This document shows, piece by piece, positions 13,592-55,651 of a stretch of DNA of 64,000 bases. The position numbers and the translations under genes were made by a program. Position 1 is the stretch's first letter, and each line of letters opens with the position of its first letter. Source of the DNA: Chloroflexota bacterium (GTDB lineage: Bacteria; Chloroflexota; Dehalococcoidia; Lucifugimonadales; UBA3495); NCBI GenBank assembly GCA_022573285.1, contig JACZUF010000007.1, positions 1 through 64,000 of the forward strand, read 5' to 3'. Below the pieces are notes generated by a model. It searched no databases. It saw only the letters and a list, made by a program, of their open reading frames with translations, and was not told the origin of the DNA.

Positions 13592-15676
13592 TTAATTGAC
13601 GTGGGGCGGGGCTTCACCGATGACGGGCATACGGAGCCGCACGGCCTCGGCCAGGCTGTCGGCCCGCAGGTCCTCCAGCTTGAGGTACTGTGCGCCCATG
13701 GCCTCGGCGATCGGCTGGATCAGGCCCAGCCTGACGAAACCGGATTCGGTGTCCACCACCACCGACGGTATTTTGTCGTCGCCGATGATCCCCGCCGCGG
13801 CGGACGCTTCGTCCAGCGGCGAGTCCGGGCCCAGGGCCACGTTGCCCCGGCCGTCGGACAGCAGGACCACCAGGGGCAGCACGTCCCGGTCCTTGATCCG
13901 CTCGGTCTCGATGACCTCCAAGGCCTTGAAAAGACCGGCGCTCAGCGGCGTCCGGCCTCCGGTGGGCATCTCCTGCAGGTGCGCCTGGGCCAGGTCGACA
14001 CTGTTGGTTGGCGGCAGCAGCAGATCGGCCTTGAGTCCACGGAAAGAGATCAGCCCCACCCGGTCGCGCCGCTGGTAGGCGTCCAGCAACAGGGACATGA
14101 TGGCCCCTTTTACCGCCACCATCCGCCGCTGCGCCCCCATGGAGCCGCTGGCGTCCACCACGAACAACACCAGACTGCCGGACTTGCTCTCCCTGACCTT
14201 GACCCGGACATCCTGCGGCTCGACCAACACCGCATTACCGGACTCGGACGCCGCCCGGCGGTCTATCTGGTGGGGGGCAGCGGCGCGCAAGGTGGCGTCC
14301 AAGGCCAGGCCCGACGCCTTGCCCTCGGGCTGGCGTGAACGCACGTAACGCCCCGCCGAGGAGTCGGTGATGGTGACGTTGCGGCGGCCGGAGGCGCGGC
14401 GGGAGCGCTTGTCGGGCGGCTTCAGATTTAGCGGCCGCACGGAGTAGGGGTCGCCAATCTCGAACTGCTGGTCTTGGGGCCTGGAACCTGGGCCGAGATC
14501 GTCGGTCTCGTCGGCAGGGTCCGGAGGCTTTGGCTGTTCTAGATCTGAGGGTCCTAAGTCCGAGGGCTCTGAATCGCCCTCTCCTTGGTCCCCGTCTCCG
14601 GACTGGTCTTGCGGCTCCCGCTGGTTGTCCCGGCTTTGAAAGTCGTCCACCATGGAGTCCAGTTGCTCGGTTGCCAGGTTGGGCTGCTGGAAGGGCTGAC
14701 GCCGTTGCCGGTGCAGCAGGGCCAGGTTGGCGGCCTCGCGGACGTCCTCGGCGTTGACCTCGGTCCGGTCCTCGTAGGCCGCGATGGTGCTGGCGGTCTT
14801 GTACATCACGATGTCGCCGCGCATCCCGTCCACGTCGTACTCGGAGCAGATGGTTGTGATGAGCGTCAGGATGTCGTCGCTGACCTGCACCTGGGGCAGC
14901 AATTTCTGACTGCGCAGCACTCTTTCCCGCTCTTCCCGCTCCGACTGCTGCCACTCCGCCATGAACCCTGGGGGGTCGGCCTCGTAGGCGATGCGTCGTT
15001 TGACCACCTGTTGGCGTTCCTCAAGGGAGAACCGGCTGTCAACCTCCACGGCAAGGCCGAAACGGTCCAGGAGCTGGGGCCGCAGGTCGCCTTCCTCCGG
15101 GTTCATGGTGCCCACCAGGATGAACTCCGAGCGGTGTGAGATCGAGATTCCCTCGCGCTCGACATAGTTGCGGCCCATGGCGGCGGCGTCCAGCAGGATG
15201 TCCACCAGGTGGTCGTTGAGCAGGTTAACTTCGTCGATATACAGGATGCCCCGGTGGGTGGCGGCGATGAGGCCGGGCTCGAAGACCCGGTTGCCGGTCT
15301 TGATGGCCTCTTCGATGTCCAGAGAACCCACCAACCGGTCCTCGGTCGCGCCCACGGGCAGGTCCACGATGGGTATCTGGCGGACCACCGTCGGCGCGTC
15401 ATCGCTATTGGGCTCGCACCGGCCGCACAGACCCTGCCGGTCGTCCGGGCTGCAGTTGTAGGGGCAGCCTTGGACCACCGTGACCGAGGGAAGCAGGGAC
15501 GCCAGGGAACGGACCGCCGTGGACTTGGCGGTGCCCTTCTTGCCCCGCACCAGAACGCCGCCGATCTTGGGGTTGACGGCGTTCAGCAGCAGCGCCCGTT
15601 TCATGGCCCTTTGACCGACGATGGCCGTGAACGGGAACCGGTACTCGATGTTGGGTGTGGCGCTCTGCTCGGTCAC
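13592..15676 (-). CDS. Fused ChlI-ChlD-type chelatase motor subunit (putative cobaltochelatase component)
   Basis: The 694-residue protein joins the two AAA+ motor subunits of class I chelatases. Residues ~10-340 are ChlI/BchI-like with Walker A RGKKGTAKST, Walker B GILYIDEVNLLNDH and the arginine-finger region. A Cys cluster (GCPYNC...LCGRC, residues ~74-92) lies between them, as in many putative cobaltochelatases. A Pro/Asp/Glu-rich linker (~350-410) leads to a von Willebrand A domain with the metal site VVDASGSMG. GTG 15676 overlaps the cbtA stop as GTGA. Shared transcription with cobalt transporters and the nearby cobN suggest cobalt insertion; magnesium chelation is the alternative. Confidence 0.85.
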   Translation of the reverse strand: MTEQSATPNIEYRFPFTAIVGQRAMKRALLLNAVNPKIGGVLVRGKKGTAKSTAVRSLASLLPSVTVVQGCPYNCSPDDRQGLCGRCEPNSDDAPTVVRQIPIVDLPVGATEDRLVGSLDIEEAIKTGNRVFEPGLIAATHRGILYIDEVNLLNDHLVDILLDAAAMGRNYVEREGISISHRSEFILVGTMNPEEGDLRPQLLDRFGLAVEVDSRFSLEERQQVVKRRIAYEADPPGFMAEWQQSEREERERVLRSQKLLPQVQVSDDILTLITTICSEYDVDGMRGDIVMYKTASTIAAYEDRTEVNAEDVREAANLALLHRQRRQPFQQPNLATEQLDSMVDDFQSRDNQREPQDQSGDGDQGEGDSEPSDLGPSDLEQPKPPDPADETDDLGPGSRPQDQQFEIGDPYSVRPLNLKPPDKRSRRASGRRNVTITDSSAGRYVRSRQPEGKASGLALDATLRAAAPHQIDRRAASESGNAVLVEPQDVRVKVRESKSGSLVLFVVDASGSMGAQRRMVAVKGAIMSLLLDAYQRRDRVGLISFRGLKADLLLPPTNSVDLAQAHLQEMPTGGRTPLSAGLFKALEVIETERIKDRDVLPLVVLLSDGRGNVALGPDSPLDEASAAAGIIGDDKIPSVVVDTESGFVRLGLIQPIAEAMGAQYLKLEDLRADSLAEAVRLRMPVIGEAPPHVN

Positions 15677-16443
15677 GTTCTGGCGGGCGCTCCAGTCACC
15701 GGGTCAAAGCGGTTGCCGGCTTTCTCGTCCCGCCGCTGGTACCAGTACAATCCCGCCGTGACTCCGACGGCCATCAGCGCCCAGGTTAGGAACTGTCCGA
15801 CCATGGTCAGGGTCCGGAACAACTCAAGCAGGTCGATGGGCACTGGGACCGGGTCGGGATTGGCCGGATGGGCGAAGAATATGACGGCGGCGAAAACCCC
15901 GTAAACCAACGCCGCACCTGCGTACATGCGGAACCTGGCAGCGGCGTCCCGGACCCGCTGGTTGATCGCGCGCAGTCCAAACAGCAGGGCTCCCACGCCG
16001 AGCACCGACAGCACCAAGAACAGGGTTTGCAGACCCTGCCGGTAGGTCAAAGTATCTGGATCTCCGACCCCGGGCGGATTCAGCGGGTAGCGAATGAACG
16101 GGAACAGGGACAGGGCCCAGAACCCTAATGCCGCCACGGTCACTGCCATCGCCAGCGGCTTCCAATCGGGGACGACCCGGCGCAGCATGGTGAAACCGGC
16201 GGCGAATACTATGCCGAGGACGGCGCCGTAGATCCCGGTTCCTACGGCCATTCCCCACCGTTGGGTGCCGAGACTCACCAACGGGTCTTCATCCGGGGCG
16301 TTGGGATTGAGCGCCGCGGATTGAGCCTCTTCGAAGTCGATGGCCCGTTCGATAACAGGTATGGTAAATAGGTTATGGAAACCACCCACGAGCAGGCCGG
16401 CAAACAGGCCTGCCAACAACCCAACAATCAGTATTCTTGGCAT
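15673..16443 (-). CDS. cbtA: Cobalt transporter subunit CbtA
   Basis: A 256-residue membrane protein starting MPRILIVGLLAGLFAGLLVGGFHN, the typical CbtA opening, with five or six hydrophobic segments. CbtA and CbtB are a two-part cobalt uptake system found mostly next to cobalamin genes; the energy source is not settled. ATG 16443 has GAGG eight bases upstream. It overlaps chlID by four bases and follows cbtB. The B12 riboswitch upstream of cbtB should control all three. Confidence 0.85.
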   Translation of the reverse strand: MPRILIVGLLAGLFAGLLVGGFHNLFTIPVIERAIDFEEAQSAALNPNAPDEDPLVSLGTQRWGMAVGTGIYGAVLGIVFAAGFTMLRRVVPDWKPLAMAVTVAALGFWALSLFPFIRYPLNPPGVGDPDTLTYRQGLQTLFLVLSVLGVGALLFGLRAINQRVRDAAARFRMYAGAALVYGVFAAVIFFAHPANPDPVPVPIDLLELFRTLTMVGQFLTWALMAVGVTAGLYWYQRRDEKAGNRFDPVTGAPART

Positions 16444-16717: not shown

Positions 16718-16915
16718 CTAATGGCACATCAAGGCAAGGTGACGGGCGTGGTGGAAGAACTCGTGGACATAGGCCATGTTGGAACCCAAGAACGCACCCT
16801 GGGCCGAGCCGTCCACGTAGCCAATGAAATACAGGGCGACGGTTGCCACCATCACGGCGGGCAGCCATCGGGAAGTCTCTCTGTTTGCTATGGACTGCCG
16901 AAACACTTGGACCAT
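16718..16915 (-). CDS. cbtB: Cobalt transporter subunit CbtB
   Basis: A 65-residue protein with one membrane segment (WLPAVMVATVALYFIGYV) and the C-terminal His-rich end HEFFHHARHLALMCH, the metal-binding signature of CbtB. An ideal GAGGAGG site lies five bases before ATG 16915. It is the first gene after the B12 riboswitch at 17177-17359, with cbtA and chlID downstream. The short length is normal for the family. Confidence 0.88.
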   Translation of the reverse strand: MVQVFRQSIANRETSRWLPAVMVATVALYFIGYVDGSAQGAFLGSNMAYVHEFFHHARHLALMCH

Positions 16916-17128: not shown

Positions 17129-17176
17129 GAATCATCATGATGACTCATACCCCCTTCCTCGAAGGTCTTCAAGTCA

Positions 17177-17359
17177 AGCCGAAGGCAGGTCTCCTGGCTT
17201 CTGGCATTTACACCCCGTTTCACCTTCCCATCCCGACGATTCGGGACAGTGGCTCCACTCCCTGTGGGAGACGGGGTTACCAGTTACAGTGGCGGGACCG
17301 CGCCGGACTCTCACCGGCTTCCCTTTTCAGTCCCGATAAATCGGGACCACCAAACGGCT
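17177..17359 (-). promoter_or_regulatory. Cobalamin riboswitch upstream of cbtB-cbtA-chlID
   Basis: On the minus strand the B12 box reads AGCCAGGAGACCTGCC (17199-17184). The core AAAAGGGAAGCCGGTG, the CCGGCGCGGTCCCGCCACTG stretch, and closing arms AGCCG/CGGCT (17359-17355 with 17181-17177) are all present. Two peripheral stems are built from TCCCGA...TCGGGA palindromes (17231-17246 and 17331-17346). High B12 should switch off cobalt uptake and the chelatase motor gene. Confidence 0.95.
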
Positions 17360-17409
17360 CATCCAGATTGTTAATTGAAGCCCAACCTCTGCGCTGGTCT
17401 TCGTGGCAA

Positions 17410-17632: not shown

Positions 17633-18496
17633 CTAATTGCGGTAAGTCGTCGGGTCCAACATATCCCTTATTCCATCGCCCAGTAAATTAAAGCCCAACA
17701 CCAGCAGGAAGATGGCGACGCCGGGAGCAAGCAACAACGCCGGGGTTGTCTGCATGTACGACCGGGAATCGTTGAGCATGGCTCCCCATTCCGGGGTCGG
17801 CGGCTGGGCGCCCAGCCCCAGGAAGCTCAACCCGGCGATGCCCAGGATGATCCACCCCATATCCAGTGTCGCCAGCACCACGAAAGGCCCCATGATGTTG
17901 CGGGCGATGTGATTGACCATTATTCTTCCGTCACTCGACCCTATGGCCCTGGCCGCTACTACGTACTCCCGATGTCTTGCCGACAAGACCATTCCACGGA
18001 TTACGCGGGCGTGGCTGGCCCACCAAACGACTGAGACTGCGATCATCACGTTGATCAGACTCGGTCCCAAAATGCCGGCCACGGCCACCCCAAGAATCAA
18101 AGATGGGAAAGACAACAGAAGGTCTACCACCATCATGAGCCCGGTGTCGAGCCAGCCACCGTAGTAGCCTGACAATGCGCCTACTACTGAGGCCAGGGTC
18201 ATGATGATTGCCAAGGACGCGCTTGACATCAAAAGTGTGGTCCGCGCCCCGAATACGAGACGACTCAACTCGTCACGGCCCAGGTGGTCGGTGCCCAAGG
18301 GAAATTCGGTGGACGGAGAAAGTAACCGGTTCTGCAAGTTCAACTCTGTGGGGTCGTGCAGCGGGAGCAATGGGGCCAGCGCCGCCACCAGAATAACCCC
18401 GGCCACGATTGCAAAACCCAAGAAGCTGCCGGGGTCTCGGCGCAGGCCGCGGAGAGTCGGCAGGCGAAGTAAAGGCCGTTGCAGTGTTCCTTCCAC
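17633..18496 (-). CDS. ABC importer permease, DppC/NikC type
   Basis: A 287-residue inner-membrane permease of the peptide/nickel importer family. It has a soluble N-terminal start, then SFLGFAIVAGVILVAALAPL, the NLQNRLLSPSTEFPLGTDHLGRDELSR segment typical of DppC/OppC/NikC, and the EAA loop region AARAIGSSDGRIMVNHIARN that docks an ATPase. It ends LLGDGIRDMLDPTTYRN. GTG 18496 is the likely start, 14 bases after the partner permease. No ATPase gene follows: the next elements downstream are another promoter and riboswitch. Peptide, nickel or cobalt are all possible substrates. Confidence 0.88.
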   Translation of the reverse strand: MEGTLQRPLLRLPTLRGLRRDPGSFLGFAIVAGVILVAALAPLLPLHDPTELNLQNRLLSPSTEFPLGTDHLGRDELSRLVFGARTTLLMSSASLAIIMTLASVVGALSGYYGGWLDTGLMMVVDLLLSFPSLILGVAVAGILGPSLINVMIAVSVVWWASHARVIRGMVLSARHREYVVAARAIGSSDGRIMVNHIARNIMGPFVVLATLDMGWIILGIAGLSFLGLGAQPPTPEWGAMLNDSRSYMQTTPALLLAPGVAIFLLVLGFNLLGDGIRDMLDPTTYRN

Positions 18497-18510
18497 CGGT
18501 CTTCGTTACC

Positions 18511-19458
18511 TCAGTTGAACTTCCCGCCAAAATGGAGGCGGGGGTCCAGCCAGCGATAAGACACATCGACCGCCAGGTTTATCAGTAGAAAGGTCATGGC
18601 CATATACAGCACAAAACCTTGCACCACGGGATAGTCCCTTTGGGATATGCCTACGACCACAAACTGGCCGACGCCGGGCCACCCGAAGATAGTCTCGATG
18701 ATGATCGCGCCACCCAACAGATATCCCGTGCTGGTTCCGAGTACTGTAACCACCGGCAATAGGGCGTTTTTAAGGCCATGACGCCACACCACCAAACGTT
18801 CGGACAGGCCCTTGGCTCGGGCGGTGCGCATGTAGTCTTGGCCCAAAACCTCTAGCATGCTGGCCCGGGTAAGGCGCATCAGTTGAGCCATGGTTCCAAA
18901 GGACAGCGCTAAAGCCGGCAACACCAAGGTTTTGGGGGAGCCGTAGCCGATGGCCGGCAACCAGTCCAGCTTAACGGCGAAGAGCAGCATTAGCGCCGGG
19001 GCCATCACGTAGCTGGGCACCGCTGCACCCACCAGGGCTAGCAGCCGGCAGCCAGTGTCCAGCCATGATCCCCGCTTCACTGCGGCCATCACCCCAAGAG
19101 GGATGCCCGCCGCCACCGCTAAGGCTAGGGCGGTGGATGCTAATAAAAGCGTGGCGGGCAACCGACGGAAGAGTTCTGCGGCAATCGAGTTGCCGGTGCG
19201 GTAGGAATCGCCCAGGTCTCCGCGCACAGCGCTGAAAACCCACCTTCCATAGCGTACCGGCAGAGGGTCGTCCAACCCCAATTCCTGGCGCAGCGCCACC
19301 ACGGCCTCGCGAGGCGGGGTTACGCCGCCGTTCTGACGACGGAGGGTGATCTCAGCAGCGTCTCCGGGGGCGAAGTTCAACAGCATAAAGCTGATAAGCG
19401 AGATACCCACCATCAGCAGCGGCAGAGTCATCAGGCGTCGCGCCAGATAGCCGCGCAT
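18511..19458 (-). CDS. ABC importer permease, DppB/NikB type
   Basis: A 315-residue permease starting MRGYLARRLMTLPLLMVGIS, with about six membrane segments, FAPGDAAEITLRRQ after the first, GLDDPLPVRYGRWV in the periplasmic part, and the EAA-like loop ARAKGLSERLVVWRHGLKNA. This is the standard DppB/OppB/NikB layout. The stop of the binding-protein gene is only one base upstream of ATG 19458, so translation is probably coupled. It forms a heterodimer with the DppC-type protein downstream. Confidence 0.9.
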   Translation of the reverse strand: MRGYLARRLMTLPLLMVGISLISFMLLNFAPGDAAEITLRRQNGGVTPPREAVVALRQELGLDDPLPVRYGRWVFSAVRGDLGDSYRTGNSIAAELFRRLPATLLLASTALALAVAAGIPLGVMAAVKRGSWLDTGCRLLALVGAAVPSYVMAPALMLLFAVKLDWLPAIGYGSPKTLVLPALALSFGTMAQLMRLTRASMLEVLGQDYMRTARAKGLSERLVVWRHGLKNALLPVVTVLGTSTGYLLGGAIIIETIFGWPGVGQFVVVGISQRDYPVVQGFVLYMAMTFLLINLAVDVSYRWLDPRLHFGGKFN

Positions 19459-19459
19459 T

Positions 19460-21025
19460 CTATTTCAGGCCGATCAGATGGTCAATGAAGTAGAGTTGGG
19501 CGGCATGCGGTCCCGACGTCCAATCTACAGAATCCGAGATACCGTAGAGCCGGTTCGGGAACATCACCGGTATCAATGCAACTTCATCCTGCCCTGCCTG
19601 CAGTGCTTCGCAAGCGATCTGCTGCCGTTGGGCGGGGTCCGCGGCGCCGGACAACCGGCCGATGAGCTCATCCACCTTGGCGTTGCTGAAATTCCCCCGG
19701 TTCTCGTCGCCGCCGGTCAGATACTGCCGGGTCAGCGCCCACTGGGGATCGCCGGTGGTGATCGTACCGTTGCTGTAACCGAACAGGTCGTACCCCCCCT
19801 GGCTGGCAAGAGTCCATTCCACGATCTGCACCTTGGCGCCCACCCCGATGTCCCGCAACATTGACTGGAACGCTTCCAGCATTGGGGGCAATAGGGGCTG
19901 CTCGGGATAGGTCTGTAGGATCAGTTCCAGAGGCTTGCCGTCCTTTTCCACTATGCCGTCGCCATTCTGATCCTGATAGCCGGCATCAGCCAATAGTTGC
20001 CGCGCCGCTTCCGGATCGTAGGTGTACCCGGCCACATTCTGGCAGGAAAGAAATCCGGGCGGGAACATGCTCTTCGCAGGGACAGCATTGCCGTCTGCGA
20101 CGCCCTCCGACATCGCCTCCCGGTCTACAGCGATGGCTATGGCCCTACGCACCAGGGAGTCCTGCATCGCCGGACTTTCATGGTTCAAAAACATGAACAG
20201 CATTCCCGAAGGGGGAGCGGTCCTAACCTCAAGGGAGGAATCGTTACCCACAACCACTGCGCCCTGGGGGGAGAGATTTACTGAGATGTCCACGTCGCCA
20301 CTTTGCAGGGCAATCAGACGGGTATCGCTTTGGGTGAAGGCCACGTATTCGATCCTGTCCACCGCAGGCGTCCCCTGCCAATAATCGGTGTGGGCAACCA
20401 CCTTCATACTTTGGTCGGCAGTGAAAGACACCAGCTTATATGGGCCGGTCATCGCGGCGCGCTCGGCGGAGTCTTCTGGCGAGGCCGGTACAGTATCCGG
20501 ATCGGCGATGCTGGTATTCTGATTTGTCAACAGCCCAGGCAGGGTCGGGTTAGGGGAATTCGTGATTATGATCACCGTCGACGGGTCCTTGACCTCAATC
20601 CGGTCGATATCCAGCAATACCCTAGTGCCGGGCCGGCGCTCCAAGGCCAGGTCGAGTGAGCCCTTCACCTTGGCAGCGTCCATCACCACGCCGTTGTGGA
20701 ACTTGACGCCCTCACGAAGGGTAATTTCCCAGATTGTGGGATCAATTTGAGTGGCTCCCGTAGCCAGCCATGGCTCCGGCTTCAGGTTATCGCCAAGCCG
20801 AAACAAGGTCTCGGCCAGGCCGGTGGGCACGGCTAGCCAGCCAGCCTGATAAGGGTCGGGAGGCTCGTCCAAGAAAGTCATCGCGATTTTCAAGACCCGC
20901 TCCTCAGCCGGTGCGGCGGACGTGCCGGTTGTGCTGGGCGTGGCCGTGGCCGCAGCTCCGCACGCGGTTATAGCCAGAATCAAAATGGTAAAAGCCGGTC
21001 CAAAGAACCGTGTACGCCACCCCAT
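19460..21025 (-). CDS. Family-5 extracellular solute-binding lipoprotein under B12 control
   Basis: A 521-residue binding protein of the peptide/nickel family (SBP_bac_5). The N-terminus has a signal peptide ending in the lipobox ITAC, then a Ser/Thr/Ala spacer. Family landmarks are LAETLFRLGDNLKPEPWLA, WEITLREGVKFHNGV, MTGPYKLVSF and VRRAIAIAVDREAM. ATG 21025 has GAGGAG eight bases before it. The gene lies directly after a cobalamin riboswitch and terminator, so its ligand is probably tied to B12: cobalt, nickel, a metal chelate or a corrinoid. The binding site cannot be read from sequence. Confidence 0.88.
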   Translation of the reverse strand: MGWRTRFFGPAFTILILAITACGAAATATPSTTGTSAAPAEERVLKIAMTFLDEPPDPYQAGWLAVPTGLAETLFRLGDNLKPEPWLATGATQIDPTIWEITLREGVKFHNGVVMDAAKVKGSLDLALERRPGTRVLLDIDRIEVKDPSTVIIITNSPNPTLPGLLTNQNTSIADPDTVPASPEDSAERAAMTGPYKLVSFTADQSMKVVAHTDYWQGTPAVDRIEYVAFTQSDTRLIALQSGDVDISVNLSPQGAVVVGNDSSLEVRTAPPSGMLFMFLNHESPAMQDSLVRRAIAIAVDREAMSEGVADGNAVPAKSMFPPGFLSCQNVAGYTYDPEAARQLLADAGYQDQNGDGIVEKDGKPLELILQTYPEQPLLPPMLEAFQSMLRDIGVGAKVQIVEWTLASQGGYDLFGYSNGTITTGDPQWALTRQYLTGGDENRGNFSNAKVDELIGRLSGAADPAQRQQIACEALQAGQDEVALIPVMFPNRLYGISDSVDWTSGPHAAQLYFIDHLIGLK

Positions 21026-21055
21026 GTGAAATTCTCCTCGTGGTCTTATTTGGGC

Positions 21056-21083
21056 AAAAAAAACCCCGACTTCGAAAGTCGGG
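21056..21083 (-). terminator. Rho-independent terminator serving the ABC-importer riboswitch
   Basis: On the minus strand CCCGACTT and AAGTCGGG form a perfect eight-pair stem with a TCG loop, followed by GTTTTTTTT. It lies 30 bases before the binding-protein start, downstream of the riboswitch. Confidence 0.9.
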
Positions 21084-21135
21084 TCAACAGAGATATAGTG
21101 ACTCACACCCTCAACTGCGAAGTGCATCAAGTCAG

Positions 21136-21317
21136 GTCATAGGCAGGTCTCCTGGCTCCTGGATCTGGCCCTTACCCCCGCCTTCCCATCCCGACGACTT
21201 GTCGGAACAGTGGCATTTTGACCGTGGGGTGGACTACACCAGTTACAGTGGCGCGACCGCGCCGGTATCTCACCGGCTTCCCTTTTCAGTCCCGATTGAT
21301 CGGGACCACCTATGGAC
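21136..21317 (-). promoter_or_regulatory. Cobalamin riboswitch upstream of the ABC importer
   Basis: The minus strand carries the B12 box AGCCAGGAGACCTGCC (21157-21142), AAAAGGGAAGCCGGTG, CGCGCCACTGTAACTGG and closing arms CATAG/CTATG. A TCCCGATTGATCGGGA palindrome (21290-21305) makes the 5' peripheral stem, as in the first riboswitch. With the terminator at 21056-21083 it should shut the importer off when cobalamin is plentiful. Confidence 0.95.
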
Positions 21318-21383
21318 ATTTTGAGATTGTTAAGCGATTGACAGCCCACGATGGCTATCCCACCGTAGTTATCATCGTTTTTG

Positions 21384-21412
21384 ATGGTAGTCTATGGGGC
21401 GGGTACGGTCAA
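21384..21412 (-). promoter_or_regulatory. Predicted promoter of the ABC-importer riboswitch transcript
   Basis: TTGACC (21412-21407) and TACCAT (21389-21384) are 17 bases apart on the minus strand. The bases from the -35 upstream (ATTGTCTATTGACC) match those of the first riboswitch promoter. The 70 bases between this promoter and the next gene hold nothing else. Confidence 0.65.
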
Positions 21413-22096: not shown

Positions 22097-25000
22097 TTAA
22101 CTCTGCGGGCCCTCTTGGCGGGCCTCCAGGTCGGCTTCCAGGTCCAAGAACATCTGTTGAAGTTTCTCTTTCATGTCCGGAGGCGGGTTCTCCCACATGC
22201 CGCGCTCGATGGCCTCCAACAGCCGCTCCACGATGTCCCTGAGGGCCCAGGGGTTGCTCTGGTGGAAAAACTCCTGGGTCTCCGGGTCCAACACGTAGGA
22301 CTCGGTGACGTTCTCGTACATCCAGTCTTCAATGACCTGGGCGGTGGCGTCGTAGCCGAACATGTAATCGACGGTGGCCGCGAGTTCGAAGGCGCCCTTG
22401 TAGCCGTGGCGCTTCATGGAGTCGATCCACTTGGGGTTCACCACCCTGGTGCGGAAAACCCGCCGGGCCTCGTCCTCCAGCTTGCGGACCCTGGGGCGGG
22501 TCGGGTCCGAACTGTCCCCAAAGAATTGCTGGGGGTTCTTGCCGGTCAGCGCCCGCACGGTGGCGATCATGCCGCCGTGGTACTGCATGTAGTCGTCGCT
22601 GTCGAAGATGTCGTGTTCCCGGTTGTCCTGGTTCTTGGCCGCCACCACTATCTGGCTGAACCGGCGGCGGAACTGGTCCCTGGCATGGACGCCGAATTCC
22701 CGTCGGGTGTAGGCGTAGCCGCCCCAGGCGGTATAGACCTCGGCCAGGTCCTGGACGGTCTCCCAGTTGCGTTCATCGATGGCGGCTAAGATCCCCGCTC
22801 CGTAGGTCCCCGGCTTGCTGCCGAAGATCCGGTACAGCGACGGGTTGCTCTCCGAGTCCGAATTTTCCTCCGCGGCCTGATCGTCAGATCCGTCGATTTG
22901 ATCATTGGCACGGTCCTCTTGCAGGTGCTTGACGATCATGTTGTCCTCGGGCGATTCATCCAGCGACGCCACCAGTTGCACCGCCTGGTCCAAGAGGTCG
23001 ATCAGGTTGGGAAAGGCGTCCCGGAAGAACCCGCTGATCCGAACCGTGACGTCGATCCGGGGGCGGCCCAGTTCCGCCAGCGGTATCACTTCCAGTCCGG
23101 TGACGCGCCGGCTCTCCTGCTGCCAGACCGGCTTCACCCCCAGCAGGCTGAACACCTGGGCGATGTCGTCTCCGTGGGTGCGCATGGCCGAGGTCCCCCA
23201 GATGACCAGTCCCACCATCTCGGGATAGGCGCCCTCCTCCTCCATGTATACCTGGAGCAGGGCGTCGGCCAGACCAACACCCATATCCCAGGCGGTGGGC
23301 GATGGGATGGTCTTGGGGTCCACCGAGTAGAAATTGCGGCCGGTGGGCAGGATGTTGGCCATGCCCCTGGTGGGCGCTCCACTGGGCCCGGCGGGAACGA
23401 ACTGGCCGTTCAACCCGCGCAGCAGGTTGCCGATCTCATCGGTGGTCCGCAGCAGGGCCGGATGCAAGGTGTCGGCCACGTAATTCAGCACACGGCTGGT
23501 CTGGGCGTCCTCGGCGCCGAGCAACTGCTCAACGGTCCCGGCCACGGCCTCGCTCTTGAACCCGCCGGCGTCGAGCAGCGAGTATGCCGTGCGGGAGAGG
23601 TCCTCCAGCCGCTCCAGCAGGTCGCCCTGGGTGCGTACCGGCGACCCGTCACCCTTGGCCAACGGCGCAGGCACCGGGTCCGGAGCGGCCAGGGACGGTT
23701 CCTCCAACAGGCTGGCGTAGTCCAAGCCCATGGCCTCCGCCAATGACCGCCGCAGACTGGGAATCGCGCCGGTGTCCAGCCTGGTCAGGGCCGATAGGAG
23801 TCCGGTCATCTGCTCGTCTTGCGGCACCTCACCCAGGGTATGAAGCCCGTCCTTGATCTGGGCGTCTTTCAGCTCGCAGAGATAACCGTCTATGTGCAGG
23901 ATAAAACCGCCGAAGTCCTCCGGCTGTTCGTCCACCCCCAGGTCCCGGTCCAGATCGGCCTGGCGCACCATGTCCCAGATCTGGCCCTCCAGTATGGGCA
24001 GTTTGGCCGGGTCCAACGTCTGGCATTGGTAGTGCTCGTCCATCAGTTGTTCCAGCCGCGCGATGTCGCCGTAGCTGTCGGCGGTCGTCATGGGGGGAAT
24101 CAGATGGTCGATGATGGTGGCGTGGGCGCGGCGTTTGGCCTGGGCCCCTTCGCCGGGGTTGTTGATGATGAAGGGATAGAACAGGGGCACGTCTTCCAGG
24201 GTCACTTCCGGGTAGCAGGCGTTGGAGAGACCGATCCCTTTACCGGGCAGCCATTCCAAGGTGCCGTGCTTGCCCAGGTGGACCATGGCGTCGGCCTTGA
24301 AAACGTCCCGCACCCATCGGTAATAGGCCACGTAGTGGTGGGTGGGAGCCAGGTCGGGGCTGTGGTAGATGGAGATGGGGTTCTCACCGAAGCCCCGGGG
24401 CGGCTGCAGGCCCACGAACACGTTGCCCAAGTCGATGCCGGCGATGGCCAGGTCGTCCCCGGTGCGGTACACCTGGCCCGGCGGCTCACCCCAGGCCTCC
24501 GTCAAATCGTCCTGGACCCGCTGGGGCATGGCGCTGAACCACTCTTTGTACTGTGAACCGCTGACGTGTCCCGCCGCCAGCCGGAGTTGCTCTTCGGTCA
24601 GGGTGTCGGTGTCGTTGCTGCAGCGCTCGATTATTCGGTGCACCAACTCGTCGCCGTCGGCCGGAATATCGGTCACATGGTACCCGGCGTCTTTCATGGC
24701 GTTCAGCAGGTTCACCACCGACGCCGGGGTGTCCAGGCCCACGGCGTTGCCCACCCTGGCGTCCTTGGTGGGGTAATTGCTGAGGATGATGGCGATGCGT
24801 TTTTCCGAGTTGGGCTTGAGCCTCAGTGCGGCCCATTTAACGGACAGCCGGGCCAGGAAGTCGATGCGGTCGGGCCGGGGCACGTTCCTTTGCAGCCGGG
24901 CGTCCATCTTCCGGTTGCGCCCGCCGCCATCCGGCGATACTTTTTCCGATGCCACCTCCTCCTTGAAGGAGATGGGGACGGTGATGATCCGTCCGTCGAA

Positions 25001-26032
25001 TTCGGGCAGGGCCACGTTCATGGCGGTGTCGATCGGTCCCAGGCCCAGGGAGCTCTCTTCCCAGTCGGCCTCTTTGCCGGAGCTGAAGATGCCCTGGATT
25101 ATCGGGACGTTCAGCTGGTCCAGATAATCGACCTGGGGCCCGGTGGCGAAGGTCGCGCCGTCCTGGTGCAGGTCGGTCATGGACATGCCCATGGTGTTGA
25201 CGATGCAGTGGACCCGCGCTTTGCCCTTGGAATCGCAGAGGATCTCGGAGAAGGTCCGGTTGACCTGCCCGTCGCCCTCGGGATTGTGCTTCAGGCTGAA
25301 AGAGTAGACCGGCAGCACGTTGGCCCCCAGCTCCTCAAGACGCCGGACCAAGGCGTCCACCGTTTGAAGATTACCGCTCATCCAGTGGGCCCGGTAGAAG
25401 AGGACCGCCACACTGGGACGGCCCGGTTGGAACCTGCGTTCGACGAAGTCTTGGGCGTCCATGCCGTCCGCTTCGTCCGGATGGTAAACGCCTTCCCAGG
25501 GCACCTCGGCGGGGGCTTCGTGGCCGTATTCGGTGCCCAGGTAAGAGTCGCTCAGGAAGAGGAACAAGTTCTGGAAATTGGGCACGCCACCCCGGATTAG
25601 ATAGGAAAAAACGGCGTCAAGCTCGGAGGGCGGAACGGTGCAGGCGGTGACCAGGTCCTGGTCCCATTCCTGGTGGCCGGGGCAGGCGATGAGCGTGGTC
25701 CCTTTTTCGTGGCACAGACGCACCAGAGAGTCGAAGGTCTCGGGCATGGCCCGCTTTCCGCCTAACAGCCGGAGCACCACAACGTCGGCCTGGGCGGCGG
25801 CTTCCAATATCTCTTGTTGTTCGCCATCTCCAGGGAGGTTGGCCGGGTTGAAGGCCTTCACCTCAGGGAAATCCGCCGGCAGCCCTTCCAGGGCCCGGTC
25901 GGCGGTGAGCAGGTCGGTGTCGGCGGTGGTGACAAACAGGATCAAACTGGGGCCGGTCCCTTCCGGCCGCTCCGAGACTGGTCGGAGGCGGGCCGGTGAA
26001 ATATCATGCCTAGGTGGAGGCAGGCCGGTCAA
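22097..26032 (-). CDS. cobN: Cobaltochelatase large subunit CobN
   Basis: A 1311-residue CobN/ChlH-family protein, the porphyrin- or corrin-binding subunit that inserts cobalt into hydrogenobyrinate a,c-diamide with ATP-driven motor partners. Recognisable stretches are [79 protein letters not shown] and [20 protein letters not shown]. A short acidic insert with DD and EE runs near residues 1040-1070 is variable. TTG 26032 overlaps cbiE by 23 bases; the true start may be slightly downstream. Magnesium chelatase ChlH is the alternative, but cbiE and the B12 riboswitches favour cobalt. Confidence 0.9.
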   Translation of the reverse strand: [1311 protein letters not shown]

Positions 26033-26711
26033 ATACCATTATCGAAAGGTCGCTGAACTCGGTGGTGATGGCGGCGCACTCGCTGATGCTGCCGCTCCAA
26101 GACTGTTCGTCGTCGTGGGTGAGGCGTTGGTATACGGTCATACCGCGGTCTCCCGGCACTCCCTCTTTAATCAGGCCCTCGGCGATGCCGGCCGGCATCA
26201 GATCGTAGGGACGGGGCAGGAGGATGACGTTGCGGCCGCCATCCATAAGGTAGTGGACCAACTCCTCCAATGCGGAGCCGGCGCCGTCCCGCCGGTGGAG
26301 GGTGATGAAAACCGTGTCTTCCAGGGATATGCCCGATCGGGACAACGCTATCTGGACGGAACTGATACCGGGCACCAGTTCTACGTGGTCCACCCGCCGT
26401 CTCACCCGGTCGAGGAGCTCCTTGGCCGAGACGTTAAGGTCTCCCCAGGCACAGACCACCAGGCTCTTGCCTTCTTTCGCCTTGCCCACGGCGTAGTCCA
26501 AGACCTCTTCTTGGTTGCGGTAGGCCATGGAACAAAGCTCGGCCTTTTTGGCGAAGGGGCGGATGACGTTTAGGACGGTCTCGAAGCCGGCGACCAAGTC
26601 GGCCTCTTCGATGGCCTGTTTCCCCTTCAGGGTCAAGAAACCGCTGTCCCCCGGACCCACGCCCACGATAGTCACGCGGGTCACCTGGGCGCCGTCTTTG
26701 GCGGAGGTCAT
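26010..26711 (-). CDS. cbiE: Precorrin-6Y C5,15-methyltransferase, CbiE (methyltransferase) part
   Basis: The 233-residue protein is a SAM-dependent tetrapyrrole methylase: VGVGPGDSGFLTLKGKQAIE at the N-terminus, then VVCAWGDLN in the SAM pocket and ELVPGISSVQIALSRSGISL. Among the corrin methylases it looks most like CbiE (N-terminal half of CobL), which methylates C5 or C15. The decarboxylating CbiT half is not fused and not in the window. ATG 26711 has no good ribosome site, so the in-frame GTG near residue 10 is possible. It overlaps cobN and is probably the first gene of that operon. Confidence 0.8.
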   Translation of the reverse strand: MTSAKDGAQVTRVTIVGVGPGDSGFLTLKGKQAIEEADLVAGFETVLNVIRPFAKKAELCSMAYRNQEEVLDYAVGKAKEGKSLVVCAWGDLNVSAKELLDRVRRRVDHVELVPGISSVQIALSRSGISLEDTVFITLHRRDGAGSALEELVHYLMDGGRNVILLPRPYDLMPAGIAEGLIKEGVPGDRGMTVYQRLTHDDEQSWSGSISECAAITTEFSDLSIMVFDRPAST

Positions 26712-40016: not shown

Positions 40017-40142
40017 TCCTTGCCGAGACCGGGACGAAGTTGCCGTTAAACCGGCATTATGGCAACCCGAAACGGTTTACCAGCGGCGATGACGCATTTA
40101 AAATCAGTCTAGAAGGCGTAACAGGTCAATGAGGCGCGCCCC

Positions 40143-40592
40143 ATGATGGAACATCAACTGGCCCCCGCCAAGGGAGCCAGGAAAAACAGAAAACGGATCG
40201 GCCGCGGCGACGCGGCAGGCCAAGGAAGTACCGCGGGACGGGGCATGAAGGGACAAAAATCCCGCTCCGGTAGCGGACCGCCTGTGTGGTTCGAGGGTGG
40301 TCAGTTGCCCTTGATTAAGGGACTGCCCATGAAGCGGGGCTTCCACAACAGATTCAAGACCTATTACTCCCTGGTCAAATTGGAGACCCTGGACAAATTC
40401 GACGCCGGAGAGCGCATCACCCCGGAACTCCTTCTGGAGAAGGGCTACCTTCGGAACCTCAATCGGCCGGTGAAGGTCATGGGCGATGGGGAGATCAGCA
40501 AGGCCGTGACCGTGGTGGCGGCAAAATTCACCCGCACCGCTAAAGAAAAGATTGAAGCGGCCAAGGGAACGGCGGAGGAGACTGCGGCGTAA
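40143..40592 (+). CDS. rplO: 50S ribosomal protein L15
   Basis: The 149-residue L15 contains RKNRKRIGRGDAAGQGSTAG, KSRSGSGPPVWFEGGQLPL and KVMGDGEISKAVTVVAAKF. It binds late in large-subunit assembly. ATG 40143 or the next codon (40146) may start it. Its stop overlaps the secY ATG. Confidence 0.96.
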   Translation: MMEHQLAPAKGARKNRKRIGRGDAAGQGSTAGRGMKGQKSRSGSGPPVWFEGGQLPLIKGLPMKRGFHNRFKTYYSLVKLETLDKFDAGERITPELLLEKGYLRNLNRPVKVMGDGEISKAVTVVAAKFTRTAKEKIEAAKGTAEETAA

Positions 40593-41920
40593 TGATGAAC
40601 GCCGAGGTCCAGTCCGGCAGATTTCCTAGGCTGATCCAGGCGGCGATCGACGCCTTCAGCCTTCCTGACCTGCGGGCCAAGATACTCTTCACTCTGGCCA
40701 TCCTGGCCCTGTACCGGTTCATCGCCCACATCCCCCTTCCGGGCATCGACCAGATAGCGTTAGACAACCTCTTCAGGAATAACCAACTCCTGGGCTTCTT
40801 GGACCTGTTCAGCGGCGGAGCGCTGAGCCGCATGAGCATCGTGGCGCTGGGCGTTTTCCCCTATATCACCTCGTCAATCATCATCCAGTTGCTGACCCCG
40901 GTCATACCCCAATTGCAGGAATTGTCCCGTGAAGGCGAGTCGGGCCGGGCCAAGATGAACCGGATCACCCACTGGATCACCATCCCCATCGCCTTCGCCC
41001 AGGGGTACGGGCAACTGGTCCTCTTGGAACAGAGCAACGTCATCGCCGAGGTGGGATTCTCCGGCGATGCTTTATTGCCCACCGTCGCGGCCCTGGTTTC
41101 CATCGCCGCCGGGACCATGTTCTTGGTTTGGCTGGGTGAGATGATCACGGAGCGAGGCATCGGAAACGGCATCTCCCTGATAATCTTCGCCGGAATCGTG
41201 GCCGGGTTCCCCAGGCTGCTGACCCAAGGCTTCTTGGACCGGGACAACGTGTTGGGCATCGGCTTCTTCGCCATAATCGGCGTGCTGATCATCGCCTGCA
41301 TCGTGATGTTCAACGAGGCCCACCGGCGCATCCCGGTGCAGTATGGCCGCAGCATCTTCAGGGGCGGTAGGATGTACCGGCAAAGCGGGGCGACCTATCT
41401 ACCATTGCGCATAAATTCGGCGGGCATGATTCCCCTGATATTTGCCTTTTCCATCGTGATCTTGCCCGGCACCATCGCGACCTACTTCGCCACCAACACC
41501 AGTTGGGTGGGCGACGTGGCGAATTTCTTTGCCGACTTGCTGATACCCACCTCGCCCCTTTATTGGGTGATGGTGTTCGTGCTGGTGGTGATGTTCACCT
41601 TCTTCTACACCTTGGTGATATTCAACCAGCAGCAACTGGCCGAGAACCTCCAGAAGAACGGCGGGTTCGTGCTGGGCATCCGGCCCGGCAAACCCACGCA
41701 GGACTACCTAAACCGTGTGATTGTGCGCATAACGTTGGGCGGGGCCCTCTTCCTGGGCACCATCGCAATCATGCCCTATATTGCGTCGCTCATCACCGGC
41801 GTTCAAGCCATATCCCTCAGCAGCACCAGCTTGCTGATCATGGTCGGCGTCGGTCTGGATACCCTGCGCCAACTTGAGGCGCAACTAATGATGCGGAATT
41901 ACGAAGGATTCCTGAGATAG
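40592..41920 (+). CDS. secY: Protein translocase subunit SecY
   Basis: SecY is the channel of the Sec translocon. The 442-residue protein has ten hydrophobic segments, with RFIAHIPLPGIDQIALDNLF, the plug region LLGFLDLFSGGALSRMSIVA, YITSSIIIQLLTPVIPQLQ and the C-terminal LIMVGVGLDTLRQLEAQLMM. Its ATG overlaps the rplO stop and its stop abuts adk, in the common spc order. Confidence 0.97.
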   Translation: MMNAEVQSGRFPRLIQAAIDAFSLPDLRAKILFTLAILALYRFIAHIPLPGIDQIALDNLFRNNQLLGFLDLFSGGALSRMSIVALGVFPYITSSIIIQLLTPVIPQLQELSREGESGRAKMNRITHWITIPIAFAQGYGQLVLLEQSNVIAEVGFSGDALLPTVAALVSIAAGTMFLVWLGEMITERGIGNGISLIIFAGIVAGFPRLLTQGFLDRDNVLGIGFFAIIGVLIIACIVMFNEAHRRIPVQYGRSIFRGGRMYRQSGATYLPLRINSAGMIPLIFAFSIVILPGTIATYFATNTSWVGDVANFFADLLIPTSPLYWVMVFVLVVMFTFFYTLVIFNQQQLAENLQKNGGFVLGIRPGKPTQDYLNRVIVRITLGGALFLGTIAIMPYIASLITGVQAISLSSTSLLIMVGVGLDTLRQLEAQLMMRNYEGFLR

Positions 41921-55479: not shown

Positions 55480-55500
55480 TCGCAGATACACTGGGCTCCC

Positions 55501-55629
55501 CTCATCTTTCGCCTGCCGCTGTTTTACCAGCGCCCGACGCCGGAATTAGCACCGTATCCCTGCCCGCCTCAACGGACCGAGACCGGTTGCCAGGCTTCAT
55601 AGGGCCGTCCCCTCTGCCGTTCTGGATAA
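55501..55629 (-). promoter_or_regulatory. SAM-I (S-box) riboswitch upstream of mtnA-mtnP-rhodanese-ahcY-metK
   Basis: On the minus strand the aptamer reads CTTATCCAGAACGGCAGAGG, GGCCCTATGAAGCCTGGCAA, CGGTGCTAATTCC and GAAAGATGAG, with CTTATC and GATGAG as closing arms. These are the conserved S-box segments. With the terminator at 55455-55479, SAM should stop transcription of the whole salvage and synthesis run. Confidence 0.95.
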
Positions 55630-55651
55630 GGGTTTCTGAGTTGTTTTTCGA

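Follow-up and report, generated by a model that had tools for sequence, protein, structure and literature searches.

A cobalamin riboswitch-controlled Nik-type importer without ATPase genes, set among the cobaltochelatase genes of a Chloroflexota bacterium, is a candidate cobalt supplier

Operons of the NikABCDE family located behind vitamin B12 (cobalamin) riboswitches have been predicted before; those of Clostridium tetani and Desulfitobacterium hafniense are cited in Zhang et al. 2009 (PMC2667541). A database search revealed more riboswitch-led nik operons, with ATPases of their own, in Bacillota (Lachnospiraceae, Paenibacillus), in Leptotrichia (Fusobacteriota) and in a Leisingera. The available portions of a review of C. 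difficile riboswitches and of a review of cobalt name no Nik-type B12-controlled importer. The B12-switched Nik-type operon is a class already known, as a prediction. Given this prior prediction and the frequency of such operons in databases, the suggestion in an earlier note on this DNA that control of a family-5 importer by B12 would be a novelty is not supported. Here we describe an importer of this class, consisting of a substrate-binding lipoprotein and two permeases, in the window, which is the whole 64-kb stretch of DNA analysed (contig C46:1-64000; the contig is 115 kb long). The genome that holds it (G000) is a 3.17-Mb assembly of 81 contigs with 92.7% completeness and 5.5% contamination; its named public relatives are Chloroflexota metagenome-assembled genomes, and it probably comes from an uncultured member of this phylum.

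Like the C. tetani and D. hafniense operons, which are described as NikABCDE systems, the window operon combines a family-5 substrate-binding protein (SBP) with NikB and NikC permeases under a cobalamin riboswitch, apart from nickel-specific NikABCDE. Unlike them, it lacks ATPase genes and sits among cobN and genes for chelatase subunits; the similar riboswitch-led operons found in this analysis carry two operonic ATPases, whereas the window operon has none. All three of its parts share fold and family with Escherichia coli NikABCDE and Staphylococcus aureus NikA/CntA, from which the system differs in having a B12 riboswitch instead of a metal-dependent repressor and in having no operonic ATPases. 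We propose, with a probability of about 0.68, that this importer provides the flanking CobN-type cobaltochelatase with cobalt, which most likely enters in a small chelate, that it is repressed by B12, and that its ATPase comes from elsewhere in the genome. New elements are an operon of this kind that has no ATPase and lies in a cluster with cobN, the exchange of importers within one genomic slot and a stand-alone NikD-type ATPase. The importer operon comprises the following features:

21384..21412, minus strand: promoter-like site TTGACC-17-TACCAT, based on a 9/12 match to the consensus only
21125..21328, minus strand: aptamer of the cobalamin riboswitch (RF00174) in front of the importer genes; 117 bits and E 1.1e-28 by cmscan
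21065..21083, minus strand: intrinsic terminator CCCGACTTTCGAAGTCGGG followed by T8, between the riboswitch and the first importer gene
19460..21025, minus strand: substrate-binding lipoprotein, SBP family 5, putatively of the NikA/Opp5A branch, 521 aa; Pfam SBP_bac_5 271 bits
18511..19458, minus strand: NikB-type permease; NCBIfam Opp2B 'nickel ABC transporter permease' 359.8 bits, cut-off 350
17633..18496, minus strand: NikC-type permease; NCBIfam Opp2C 308.5 bits, cut-off 300

The three genes are separated by 1-14 nt, with the lipoprotein ATG at 21025 and its stop at 19460. The riboswitch score is far above the Rfam gathering score for RF00174 (31.5 bits, cmscan) and a terminator is present, in agreement with the earlier description of a tight operon under cobalamin control. 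Each of the two cobalamin riboswitches in the window is separated from its first gene by a hairpin and a run of six to eight T. In near relatives, an orthologous riboswitch precedes the importer wherever the leader is on the contig, and the nik leaders carry a hairpin and T-run at about the same spacing, with different stem letters (CCCGACTTTCGAAGTCGGG, GCCTGGCCTTCTGGTCAGGC). This anatomy suggests a transcription-terminating OFF switch, with a ligand response that we take from the riboswitch class. When B12 is plentiful, adenosylcobalamin would bind the leader, the terminator would form and the operon would be off; when B12 is scarce, the lipoprotein would capture a cobalt complex and hand it over to the permease pair.

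The system is well conserved. Six further members of the genus carry an intact lipoprotein gene, and G028 has an orthologue as well, with identities of 72-88%; the orthologues of G029 (53%) and G021 (46%) are more distant. The order riboswitch-SBP-permease-permease is kept in near relatives with the leader on the contig; the G004 contig begins at the SBP gene. Because the whole architecture recurs in other genomes, chance or assembly error is excluded as its origin. Chloroflexota copies with about 42% identity are also ATPase-less, some of them with a cobalamin riboswitch upstream (L081, L087, L094). In one relative (G009, L083 7739-8878), the sequence after a nik-type riboswitch encodes a fragment of an SBP joined to an apparent IS3-type transposase frame.

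The importer operon occupies the space between cobN and a cobaltochelatase I/D gene, within a cluster on the minus strand:

26010..26711, minus strand: tetrapyrrole methylase, nearest to cobalt-precorrin-7 C5-methyltransferase
22097..26032, minus strand: cobN, cobaltochelatase large subunit; NCBIfam TIGR02257 1285 bits
21483..22196, minus strand: ChuX/HutX-like (DUF7676) protein, kept between cobN and the importer slot
17167..17370, minus strand: second cobalamin riboswitch, heading cbtB-cbtA-cobaltochelatase; 110.2 bits
17128-17106, minus strand: terminator of the second riboswitch
16718..16915, minus strand: cbtB, proposed cobalt transporter subunit, 65 aa, recognized by position, size and C-terminal His pattern
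15673..16443, minus strand: cbtA, proposed cobalt transporter; Pfam CbtA 150 bits, over cut-off
13592..15676, minus strand: cobaltochelatase I/D-type subunit (AAA+VWA); NCBIfam TIGR02442 809 bits, above cut-off

The second riboswitch (17167-17370), the upstream cobN and the corrin-ring methyltransferase were not mentioned in the earlier note. The window CbtA reaches just 20.5 bits against NCBIfam TIGR02458, under the cut-off of 182.9, and Pfam gives no match for CbtB, which adjoins cbtA in relatives too.

Comparison of relatives revealed a slot in which importers are exchanged. It extends from the cobN/HutX-like genes to the chelatase I/D gene and has rpsG-fusA and glyS-birA as its flanks. It contains nikABC only in G003, G004, G007, G028 and G029; nikABC together with cbtBA, under separate riboswitches, in the window genome, G001, G008 and G011; and cbtBA only in G006, G014, G026, G035, G040, G042 and G045. 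In the five nikABC-only genomes the chelatase gene follows nikC after about 140-245 nt with no riboswitch between them. Where a riboswitch was found in cbtBA-only genomes from outside the genus, it stands before the methylase-cobN end of the cluster and not before cbtBA. In G006 (L259 6825-7573), two tandem cobalamin riboswitches lie about 350 nt apart, and a nik-type riboswitch, its terminator and a 62-nt nikB fragment remain upstream of the cbt riboswitch, indicating that nikABC was lost there. The cobN gene of G006 is split in three pieces in its assembly. The slot of G002 (L258 10546-14778) holds a riboswitch that clusters with the nik leaders (modest support), a CbiX-like/2Fe-2S protein and then a FecB-, FecCD- and ATP-binding cassette (ABC)-type importer.

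Since the slot lies in a cobalt-insertion operon and nikABC exchanges with cbtBA, context and replacement support cobalt, free or chelated, as the best candidate substrate. The lipoprotein would be the extracellular receptor, and the permeases the membrane channel, of a NikABC-type importer feeding the cobaltochelatase. Of the substrates named in the earlier note, cobalt, either free or in a chelate, has the strongest support, and a corrinoid fits the neighbourhood less well. Among 19 genomes surveyed, CobN was found in 18, CbiM in none and a NiCoT protein over the profile cut-off in none. The sole genome without CobN (G023) encodes a complete FecCD importer and lacks both nikABC and CbtA. G003 and G007 (about 90% complete) have no CbtA, CbiM or NiCoT, making nikABC the only recognized candidate cobalt importer there. 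The slot thus amounts to a natural replacement experiment, with NikABC, CbtBA or a FecBCD-type importer in one place, and this supports all three as cobaltochelatase suppliers, including the poorly tested CbtAB. CbtAB shares the slot, the kind of riboswitch and the chelatase operon with nikABC, but consists of unrelated membrane proteins without a binding lipoprotein; it adjoins nikABC in the window, and several relatives do not have it. Its own role in cobalt transport is a prediction, and one over-expression test brought no growth gain (PMC2773004), which weighs against the cobalt assignment.

The family assignments bear on whether the importer might instead carry nickel, or nickel and cobalt alike, as the NikBC annotation implies. 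Both permeases exceed the NCBIfam cut-offs for nickel permeases given above, and score below cut-off for TIGR02789/02790 and Opp1B/1C. The best NCBIfam match of the lipoprotein is Opp5A_nikA, at 309 bits, below the equivalog cut-off of 600, a further difference from the E. coli and S. aureus systems. An AlphaFold model (mean pLDDT, the predicted local distance difference test, 77; C-terminus and residues 243-254 poorly modelled) compared by Foldseek predicts a NikA-like fold, and the nearest solved structures are 3t66, S. aureus NikA, E. coli NikA and CntA with cobalt-staphylopine. These are nickel- and metallophore-binding proteins that hold Ni or Co chelates, and the closeness to nickel-binding proteins speaks for nickel. 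However, B12 control and a place in a cobaltochelatase operon are sensible for cobalt only, and we regard nickel transport, alone or mixed with that of cobalt, as quite improbable.

Related operons provide further hints that the substrate is a metal. An FhuF-like reductase is encoded beside nikABC at three related loci, two of them B12-riboswitch operons: in G029 (L075 7134-7961) the order is riboswitch-fhuF-nikABC-chelatase, in G021 (L076 7465-8064) the gene lies upstream of nikABC, and in L145 (4647-5474) it lies downstream of riboswitch-nikABC. The L145 protein is slightly below the Pfam cut-off, yet 50% identical to the G029 protein. FhuF-type proteins free metal from chelates by reduction, and therefore the substrate may be a Co(III) chelate; a corrinoid would be compatible as well. 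Among the nikABC copies with 42% identity, twelve loci (L081 9229-11672 and eleven others) have a CobW-type GTPase and a WD40 beta-propeller protein nearby. The presence of an FhuF-like reductase or CobW-type GTPase in related operons favours a metal over a peptide, and import of peptides by the window importer seems unlikely.

Alternatively, the importer may carry cobalamin, cobinamide or some other incomplete corrinoid in place of an absent BtuFCD. Cobalamin riboswitches head vitamin B12 importers as well, BtuCDF being one so controlled; the window genome has no FecCD/BtuC protein over cut-off, the FecBCD-type importer in the G002 slot belongs to the family that includes BtuCDF, and the FhuF-like reductase might equally serve Co(III) corrinoids. 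Against this, the usual partner in the slot is cbtBA, in several relatives the operon continues into the cobaltochelatase gene, and CobN is found in nearly all genomes surveyed. BtuC is absent as a family rule, with or without nikABC, so that nikABC does not track BtuC loss. The importer also differs from BtuCDF in its permease and binding-protein families, both permeases being BPD_transp_1 and not FecCD-type (BtuC family) in Pfam, and the closest binding proteins of known structure bind small metal chelates. Corrinoid transport is thus improbable in our judgement.

No ABC ATPase was detected in the 64-kb window by motif scan, and contig C46 contributed none of the 30 ABC matches in a search of the whole assembly with the nikE profile, confirming that an ATP-binding subunit is missing from the operon and its vicinity. 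In that search, seven Opp/Nik-type ATPase domains rank top (159-259 bits; the next match has 145 bits), and the same seven carry an oligo_HPY domain. Two complete operons (C13; C23, fused) account for four of them, a stand-alone DppD-DppF pair on C21 accounts for two more, and the last is a single gene on C65; the search for orphan DppD/DppF-like ATPases proposed earlier has thereby yielded two stand-alone candidates. The genome has seven family-5 permease pairs, five of which are ATPase-less (window, C70, C75, C6 and C61). A family-5 operon without ATPase genes is the norm in this genome.

No Opp/Nik-type ATPase gene adjoins any of the related importer loci inspected, and this, together with the insertion sequence (IS)-disrupted copy in one relative and the deletion down to a relic in another, would also be expected if there were no functioning ATPase, the operon being in decay or working by secondary or energy-coupling factor (ECF)-like transport. 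However, the permeases are without stop codons, the coupling loops of both are intact and conserved in orthologues, the SBP is conserved, and the riboswitch and terminator have been retained though the terminator stems changed. We rejected loss of function as the cause of the missing ATPase on the grounds of intact frames, conserved coupling loops and wide conservation, and we consider transport without an ATPase highly improbable. The earlier note left open whether shared ATPases from another locus are used or the system works otherwise: the former gains from the stand-alone candidates, and the latter loses ground, as the coupling loops are intact and ATPase-less operons are the majority. The ATPase is likely supplied in trans.

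Phylogenetic analyses were used to place the genome's own ATPases, as BLAST best-hit scores of NikD proteins against them are suggestive only. The C65 ATPase (at about 40137-41123; L027 8138-9124) falls inside the NikD clade (support 98/93), which includes D subunits of riboswitch-led nik operons from other phyla; the genome's three further D-type ATPases do not. The window NikC is the genome's only permease-C on the NikC side of the tree (97, Shimodaira-Hasegawa-like approximate likelihood ratio test (SH-aLRT)). Given these matched NikD and NikC lineages, the C65 ATPase appears to be the best candidate motor, a pairing suggested by phylogeny. The permeases would be driven by a shared Opp/Nik-type ATPase, either a C65 homodimer or C65 with a DppF-type subunit. 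In all 15 genomes in which its neighbourhood was inspected, the C65-type gene lies in the context ftsK-PHP-ATPase-holA and never adjoins a permease or SBP gene.

Several observations weigh against this pairing. The permease-B tree leaves the Nik/Dpp split without resolution, and no NikE-lineage partner for the C65 ATPase was found. The C65-type ATPase is not among the matches for two nikABC-bearing genomes, G003 and G028, which are incomplete and were covered by a thresholded search. It also occurs in genomes without nikABC at the locus (G002, G006, G014, G023, G035 and G040) and is therefore not dedicated to nikABC; a shared role is the simplest reading.

The second-choice motor would be the stand-alone DppD-DppF pair of C21. 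That this pair, or the ATPases of the complete C13 or C23 operons, drives the importer instead of C65 is possible, and we hold it as a tentative alternative. DF is the usual heterodimer and the C21 DF stands alone in the window genome; in several relatives it lies next to an ATPase-less A-B-C operon of the C6 type, the two being on opposite strands. Furthermore, in Borrelia burgdorferi one OppDF pair drives two Opp permease pairs (PMC5736914). The window genome resembles Borrelia in having several permease pairs, fewer ATPases and, as we propose, a shared motor; the Borrelia system involves peptides and a DF heterodimer, whereas the window candidate involves a metal and a lone NikD-type gene. 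The C21 and C13 D subunits, however, branch outside the NikD clade, and the closest DF pairs of G002 and G008 are parts of complete operons.

The locus draws attention to one particular NikD-type ATPase, encoded by itself, that may be a shared motor. If this is correct, the C65-type ATPase would explain most family-5 operons without ATPases in these genomes, and such operons should not be annotated as broken. We found no description of cobalt supply in the B12 makers of uncultured Chloroflexota in the literature searched. We speculate, while considering it unlikely in this full form, that the C65-type ATPase is the common motor of several ATPase-less family-5 importers, including a B12-repressed route for Co(III) chelates (cobaltophores) in which an FhuF-like protein would release the cobalt and deliver it to CobN.

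The ChuX/HutX-like (DUF7676) protein is conserved across the family at the junction of cobN and the importer slot; it is possibly a cobalt or corrin handling protein. A third cobalamin riboswitch of the assembly precedes a nitroreductase-like gene, read as bluB by sequence. The window also contains an S-adenosylmethionine (SAM)-I riboswitch at 55499-55632 on the minus strand (69 bits).

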